DNA of 64,000 nt from Methanomicrobiales archaeon (GTDB taxonomy: Archaea; Halobacteriota; Methanomicrobia; Methanomicrobiales; JACTUA01): positions 1 to 64,000 of the forward strand of contig JACTUA010000005.1 of assembly GCA_015660865.1 (NCBI GenBank). Reading direction: 5' to 3'. Both the position numbers and the translations under genes were made by a program. The notes under the pieces are model-generated. The model did not search any database and was not told the DNA's origin. It saw only the letters and a list, made by a program, of their open reading frames with translations. Positions 20,588 to 21,192 of the stretch are shown here, piece by piece. Positions within the stretch are counted from its first letter, which is position 1. Each line of letters starts with the position of its first letter.

Positions 20588-21136
20588 ATCTAAGATCCAT
20601 CCTTGTCCGAACGCAACACGTGCGCGAACGCCACTCTTCTCTCTCTCACTTCCATCGCTGAGGAACCCCGTCACCGTCCGTGAGGGGATGGTGCCGGCCG
20701 TCAGAGGGTCCGGCACGAGAAGCGGCTCTGGTATGGGGCGGTTCGCACGGGCGGATGCCCGGTCTCGCGAAGACTTTCGCGGGGTTGTCGCGAAGTTTCG
20801 CGAAGATATTCGCGAAGAGCGCCTGATCGTTCACCGCGTTCCCGTTTGGCCTGAAAAGGCCGGGTACCGGGCGCGTTCACAGGACGTTGGCCCATGCGGT
20901 GACATCAGATCCAACTTCTGTCAGCCCGTTGTGCTCTCCTTGCACAACTCTGTTCCCTGTCCCTGATAAGGGACGCATGATTCTCGAACCGCCCGCGCGG
21001 GCAGGGTATCCTGCACCAACAGGCGGAGATAGCATTCCGGATGGGTGGATGGTGAGATCATCCATTTTCCGATGCCGGGTGCACCTTCCGTCTGTCAGGC
21101 GGCTTCCTATAAAATTGACTGGATGTGGATATAAAC
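20588..21136 (-). promoter_or_regulatory. Promoter and long structured leader of the ribosomal operon
   Basis: On the minus strand the only good TATA-like boxes lie far from L3: TTTATATC (21128-21136) and TTTTATAG (21108-21115). A transcript from them would have a leader of about 500 bases. Within it are four perfect hairpins: 21045-21064 (six pairs), 21001-21014 (GCAGG/CCTGC, loop of four), 20959-20974 (GTCCCT/AGGGAC, loop of four) and 20928-20948 (GTTGTGC/GCACAAC, loop of seven). CCGCCTG and CGGGCGG enclose the second. Further down, TCGCGA occurs at 20764, 20788, 20798 and 20810. No protein frame in this stretch is convincing. Confidence 0.6.
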
Positions 21137-21192
21137 CTTATTGACGAATGGTCCCCGGCAAAAAAGAGAGCCGGGTCCTCTCTTCCTTGTTC

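Follow-up and report, generated by a model that had tools for sequence, protein, structure and literature searches.

A probable leader RNA of an archaeal L3 operon, apparently kept after loss of the methyltransferase gene that contains it in other genomes

The region ahead of the L3-L4-L23-L2 ribosomal protein operon was analyzed in a stretch of 64,000 nucleotides from a Methanomicrobiales archaeon (the window). We consider it likely, from comparison with related genomes, that this region carries a cis-acting and autogenous leader RNA of the operon, a form of the Rfam family RF03135 that would have been freed from a methyltransferase gene lost at least three times. It is highly probable that the element belongs to a class of archaeal ribosomal protein leaders written inside the methyltransferase reading frame, that Methanomicrobiales lost the protein several times and that the RNA stayed; the ancestral state would still be visible in sister genera, in four genomes of this order (G002, G050, G019 and G114). 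The fold family itself was already known. What appears to be new is its nesting in a coding gene, its outliving of that gene and its extended form in Methanomicrobiales: in the open PMC papers, the supplement of PMC7247131 excluded, we found no report of the nesting, of the gene loss or of the extended form.

The hairpin cluster ahead of L3

All features of the window described here are on the minus strand. The operon begins with the gene of ribosomal protein L3 (19580-20587; PF00297, 1e-87), followed by those of L4 (18824-19570; PF00573, 1.7e-39), L23 (18579-18824; PF00276, 1.3e-13) and L2 (17850-18575; PF03947, 1e-43). Upstream of the operon a promoter-like block is present at 21092-21138. 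It is composed of TTTATAT (21135-21129) followed by TATAGGAAGCCG, where the transcript would probably start. The sister species (G032) has this block with 98 % identity over 47 bases, and the following 118 bases or so are unconserved. The start motif A[AT]A[AG]GAAGCC, sought throughout the order, occurs in just 6 of 90 loci; we therefore claim conservation of the promoter block at the genus level alone. The position of this block, 5' of the hairpins, makes it unlikely that transcription starts downstream of 20928. Directly upstream of the leader promoter and on the same strand, a gene codes for a TFX-type DNA-binding regulator (PF14601; 21196-21597); a similar gene was seen by eye at this place in relatives that lack the methyltransferase gene (hereafter "gene-less"), such as L010, L012 and L014.

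The first-pass annotation had described four perfect hairpins between a TATA-like promoter and the first gene, and had read them as a structured leader. Their position is right, as the promoter-like block is found 5' and L3, L4, L23 and L2 are found 3'. The stems are real as well: 6 bp at 21064-21046 (hairpin A, TGGATG/CATCCA), 5 bp at 21014-21001 (hairpin B, GCAGG/CCTGC), 6 bp at 20974-20959 (hairpin H0, GTCCCT TATC AGGGAC) and 7 bp at 20948-20928 (hairpin H1, GTTGTGC/GCACAAC). Hairpin B, which spans 20989-21026 as a whole, is nested in a helix of CCGCCTG (21026-21020) with CGGGCGG (20995-20989), with one G-U pair as read from the sequence. Among 1000 dinucleotide shuffles (mean 0.86), 0.7 % contain at least four such hairpins (stem of at least 5, loop of 3 to 9), and the folding energy of the 137-base cluster corresponds to a z of -3.2 against 300 shuffles. 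Taken on its own, the conserved element of the window is no stabler than shuffles (z -0.83).

The four hairpins had been taken as one element, and only half of this can be retained: the two 3' hairpins are part of the conserved element and the two 5' hairpins are unconserved, even in the sister species, so the cluster as a single unit was rejected. In G032, 74 of the 118 bases of 21092-20975 are deleted; hairpin A is missing and hairpin B aligns at its 3' part only. Over the 131 bases of H1 and the RF03135 part described below, the window and G032 share 87 % identity, and across the order H1 and, often, H0 recur. H1 is conserved in the order as helix 1 of the covariance model R1 (see below). 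For H0, position and shape are conserved and sequence is not: after dereplication, 57 % of 56 gene-less leaders have a perfect stem of at least 6 at its place, versus 7 % of shuffles, and 37 different 5' arms occur among the 56. The conserved element also extends 3' to about 20803, further than first annotated. A further hairpin is present 3' of RF03135 in 48 % of leaders versus 8 % of shuffles. At this place the window contains four TCGCGAAG/CTTCGCGA units (20765-20817), where relatives have a single TTCGCGAGAC hairpin. The run is expanded in G032 as well, which suggests that the 3' tail hairpin is undergoing multiplication in the genus.

A search of Rfam, which the first-pass annotation had proposed, identified RF03135 at 20908-20823 (46.6 bits for a gathering score of 34.5). 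The match comprises P1 (CUGA/UCAG), P2 and two inner hairpins; it occupies the 86 bases directly 3' of the hairpin cluster and is the sole RF03135 match in the genome. The core of the leader is thus already known, and the earlier statement that no described archaeal leader of this form was known is not supported: the 86 bases next to the cluster are covered by RF03135, the "L4-Archaeoglobi" ribosomal protein leader of Eckert and Weinberg 2020 (PMC7247131). As described there, the motif is graded borderline and assigned to Archaeoglobi, and L4 is proposed as its ligand by analogy (the "Prior" principle of that paper), with the bacterial L4 leader named as precedent; the first-pass annotation had likewise suggested L4, or else L2. 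According to the description of Rfam 15, revision with R-scape increased the number of covarying pairs in a set of families, RF03135 among them (PMC11701678). The window's element has the properties that define a member of the family, i.e. a score above the gathering score, a location upstream of the L3-L4-L23-L2 operon and covarying helices. RF03135 is not confined to Archaeoglobi: it matches in about 102-112 of the 199 genomes of the order and in 166 of the 294 genomes of our phylum sample. The restriction to Archaeoglobi is a matter of the name of the family and not of its model, and a split or an extension of the family may be considered. A cobalamin riboswitch, also considered, was rejected (15 bits for a gathering score of 31.5).

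Spread and covariation of the extended element

To describe the whole element we used the model R1 (147 positions, 34 pairs), which includes H1, RF03135 and the 3' tail. It was built on 22 relatives without the methyltransferase gene, picked for aligning alike; P2 was shifted between families in the raw MAFFT alignment. In the window, R1 places the element at 20803-20959 (58.1 bits, E 9.6e-12), a single place in the genome. The gene-less set was made of 85 places matched by RF03135 plus the window, and four loci of the order were taken as gene-bearing. Removal of rows more than 88 % alike left 56 of the 85 gene-less rows. Alignment A1 contains 52 of these 56, the four rows without H1 being left out, and G128 was omitted from the first consensus-fold alignment for its short flank. 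All 100 loci of the order that were supplied are matched by R1, including 11 gene-less loci missed by RF03135. Gene-less genomes of the order often fall below the RF03135 cut-off; R1 finds the element in 170 of 199 genomes and 33 of 38 genera. It has no match in 29 genomes, 11 of which are among the 132 high-quality ones.

Covariance analysis in related genomes, a check that had been proposed along with the Rfam search, revealed strong covariation across the order and supports the reading as a structured RNA leader. In alignment A3 (99 distinct rows), 24 of 34 pairs are changed on both sides, a count which rests on an alignment fitted to the model and on first loci selected by RF03135 matches, so that the helices internal to RF03135 are somewhat favoured. 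H1 is outside RF03135, and it exhibits double-sided changes in 6 of its 7 pairs, with 95.6 % of cells paired. A3 as a whole has 92.1 % of its cells paired versus 75.9 % with shuffled partners, and none of 500 shuffles reaches any of the measures. Sliding the partners by 1-3 columns lowers the pairing to 30-40 %. In helix P2, double changes are found in 7 of 7 pairs. An alignment-free comparison of the P2 arms of 56 rows gave -8.7 kcal/mol with the arm's own partner versus -6.2 kcal/mol with those of other genomes, a difference obtained in none of 10000 permutations. The element also contains highly conserved single-stranded runs: GCUGACAG, GGAUCUGA and UCAGGAUCU.

In 129 of the 130 genomes compared, the R1 element and L3 share a strand and the element is 166-504 nt upstream; the count concerns 130 places among the R1 matches listed, and G190 has no L3 row. 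This location makes a separate small RNA, the other possibility raised initially, less likely. Within 180 nt after the element, a run of T5 or longer is missing in 81 of 86 gene-less leaders and present in 5, which gives no support to a U-tract terminator. With the element far from the L3 start and these 81 leaders devoid of T5, neither a masking of the start site nor a U-tract terminator is apparent. The compact fold of the element and the conservation of the promoter-like block in the genus are what a separate, processed small RNA acting in trans could display, yet such an RNA is very improbable: the terminator-like U tract is generally missing, the place before L3 is constant and, in other genomes, the element lies inside an open gene.

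The RNA within the methyltransferase gene and after its loss

In G050 and G002 the RNA is located inside an open reading frame between the promoter and L3. This frame corresponds to PF02598 (SPOUT, COG2106). PF02598 is present in 4 of the 199 genomes of the order (G002, G050, G019 and G114), each of which carries its RF03135 match within that gene. In the phylum sample of 294 genomes, PF02598 was found in 145 and RF03135 in 166. Outside the order, the 136 genomes positive for RF03135 are all positive for PF02598 too, so a single order offers examples of the RNA outliving the gene. In the sample as a whole, 128 of the 294 genomes are without RF03135. Of the controls, Methanosarcina acetivorans has a match to neither RF03135 nor PF02598, and Haloferax volcanii, a laboratory strain, has a match to both. 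The RF03135 match lies within the open PF02598 frame, in the same phase, in 38 of 38 loci (34 outside the order and 4 inside). The R1 element corresponds approximately to residues 109-160 of the 278-residue G002 protein, i.e. the middle of the protein, and the RNA is in the region of the OB-fold insert of COG2106/PF02598 genes. This insert of COG2106 enzymes has been described (PMC1829167), and COG2106 genes have been noted in ribosomal protein operons of several archaea (PMC2584109). A family named as a leader is thus found in a protein-coding gene in the gene-bearing genomes of the phylum sample.

For the gene-bearing loci, synonymous codons were permuted within each gene, which leaves the protein and the codon use unchanged. 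The RF03135 stretch obtained a mean z of -3.44 (32 of 38 genes below -2) versus -0.78 and -1.44 for the flanks, in genes that are related by descent. In a second run, in which the region was set by protein alignment, the 38 genes outside the order had a z of -3.52, with 34 of them below -2; for four control regions it was -0.4 to -1.55. The signal is weak in the four genes of the order (z -0.9 to -1.9, none below -2). Among 37 gene-bearing sequences, 23 of 34 pairs are changed on both sides, and 90.2 % are paired versus 76.5 % after shuffling. These values suggest that the RNA fold is under selection within the gene as well. As the fold is inside the reading frame, the same bases would carry a protein message and an RNA message.

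The genes outside the order also indicate with what the RNA is associated. We examined 40 of the 143 gene-bearing genes, most of them picked from RF03135 matches. Each of the 38 examined genes positive for RF03135 adjoins L3, with 6-108 bases between the gene match and L3, a proportion to be read as a case-control figure since the genes were mostly picked by these matches. Seven of the 143 PF02598-positive genomes are without RF03135. Two of them have only a fragment of the gene, at a contig end and beside L3. In five (G220, G269, G298, G321 and G327; loci L150-L154), which represent three families, no L3 is present in the 7.9-10 kb around the PF02598 gene. These five unlinked genes are matched by neither R1 nor RF03135, and their mean codon-shuffle z is -0.75; they look as if freed from the RNA constraint, or never under it. 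Since genes abutting L3 have the RNA and unlinked genes do not, the RNA appears to go with the downstream ribosomal genes and not with the enzyme.

This bears on the possibility that the RNA serves the methyltransferase, by resembling the rRNA target of the enzyme and controlling the enzyme's own synthesis. The RNA is within the enzyme's gene in gene-bearing genomes, and the enzyme is a member of an RNA methyltransferase superfamily (PMC1829167, PMC2584109). We nevertheless give little credence to such a control. The gene is absent from 195 of the 199 genomes of the order, 166 of which have the RNA, and methyltransferase genes away from L3 are without it. Applied with filters off to the genome's own 23S locus (L149), R1 returned fragments only (best E 0.098), and mimicry of 23S rRNA was set aside as unsupported by this search.

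The window's genome has neither a PF02598 match nor an intact methyltransferase coding sequence. It retains a 62-aa open frame at 20877-21065 (EHNGLTEVGSDVTAWANVL*; no Pfam match) with a frayed methyltransferase remnant: tblastn with the G002 methyltransferase aligns residues 116-140 (E 1.1e-7), through a stop. Between the window and G032, the 131 bases compared contain indels of 1, 1 and 2 bases at the 87 % identity given above; because such indels break the frame in the sister species, the 62-aa frame is probably not a peptide gene. The same decay is visible in the other leaders. Among the 86 gene-less leaders, 64 match the G002 protein, over residues 91-188 or so only (one stray, E 0.02). 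Stops and frame changes interrupt these matches, nothing of the N- or C-terminal parts is left, and the recognisable remnant is the middle third of the gene only. Of 38 gene-bearing loci, 37 have an RF03135 match whose length is 1 mod 3; this length is distributed 35/27/24 over the three mod-3 classes in the 86 gene-less loci. On a tree of L3 (79 rows) the gene state changes 3-4 times, at least 3 of them by well-supported branches, and gene-bearing genera are nested among gene-less ones. With the gene present across the phylum sample, several losses would be the simplest reading, their number being beyond what a single-gene tree can give.

One could then take RF03135 for no more than a by-product of conservation in a protein segment, and the leaders of Methanomicrobiales for decaying methyltransferase pseudogenes. 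The open PF02598 frame around RF03135 in every gene-bearing locus examined agrees with this, as do the methyltransferase remnants of the gene-less leaders and the borderline grade given to the motif in PMC7247131. It is highly improbable all the same: after loss of the frame most genera (those 33 of 38 with an R1 match) have preserved the middle third though not the ends, the fold exceeds synonymous shuffles in the genes, and a covariation of stems without a frame already disfavours it. As the fold is kept though the enzyme gene is gone, the RNA probably has a job of its own, the tuning of ribosome production.

Proposed function and known systems

Our preferred reading is that of an autogenous leader of the L3-L4-L23-L2 operon. 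In the ancestral state, the RNA fold would be inside the reading frame, in the OB-fold part, of a methyltransferase gene heading the operon. In Methanomicrobiales this protein gene would have been lost at least three times, and selection would have kept the RNA as a 5' untranslated leader. Genome comparison shows the fold, its covariation, its place upstream of L3, the broken frame and the absence of the gene; we infer that the element is transcribed and bound by a free ribosomal protein of the operon, one not taken up by rRNA. L4 and L3 would be the first candidates, the former as the published guess and the latter as the product of the nearest gene, and the data may fit one as well as the other. 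The bound protein would lower the expression of the operon and, in gene-bearing genomes, that of the neighbouring methyltransferase gene too, where the short gap between this gene and L3 would permit coupled translation. Conserved unpaired runs combined with freely changing stems, in an element fixed to the L3 operon, give it the look that a leader binding a ribosomal protein may be expected to have.

The leader could also be structured and non-autogenous, with a role in mRNA stability, processing or ribosome loading, or as the site of a general factor (RNase, L7Ae-like protein or chaperone). The conserved single-stranded runs may bind any protein, and the distance to L3 ranges from 166 to 504 nt. 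Such a role seems rather unlikely, given the strict tie of the RNA to the L3 operon (the RF03135-positive genes examined abut L3 and the five unlinked genes are without the RNA) and its presence in one place only in the window's genome.

To our knowledge few cis-regulatory RNAs have been found in archaea. The element would offer an uncommonly clear example of an RNA function first embedded in a protein-coding gene and then released from it, so that the two constraints can be set against each other at the level of single bases. If the leaders do form a class written inside the methyltransferase frame, Methanomicrobiales offer a natural experiment which separates the two messages, and an example of a coding gene turning into a noncoding regulator. 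It is also suggested that screens restricted to intergenic regions miss regulatory RNAs located in upstream genes of ribosomal protein operons. As for RF03135 itself, graded borderline by its discoverers (PMC7247131), strong covariation is now observed in two settings, inside the gene and after its loss.

Several known systems can be compared with this RNA. The COG2106/PF02598 genes carry it in their OB-fold insert, and the window's genome keeps the RNA segment only. In bacteria, the L4 leader of the S10 operon is a leader RNA ahead of L3, L4, L23 and L2; it belongs to another domain of life and the likeness is one of analogy alone. In Methanococcus, control by L1 involves a binding site inside a coding sequence. 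Among archaeal controls of the L1 or L7Ae type, we know of no case in which the RNA has outlasted the gene that carried it. The L7Ae leader (PMC5539422, PMC6298567) is a further example of ribosomal protein control in archaea. Both controls concern other proteins. The closest system remains RF03135. Neither the nesting in the PF02598 frame nor the persistence without this frame is mentioned in PMC7247131, its supplement aside. The form present in the window differs from the family as described by its extension, 5' by H1 and H0 and 3' by the tail hairpin, and, unlike what the name implies, the family is found far beyond Archaeoglobi. The window's form shares with RF03135 the core fold, the conserved CUGA...UCAG closing helix and the place ahead of rplC-rplD-rplW-rplB.
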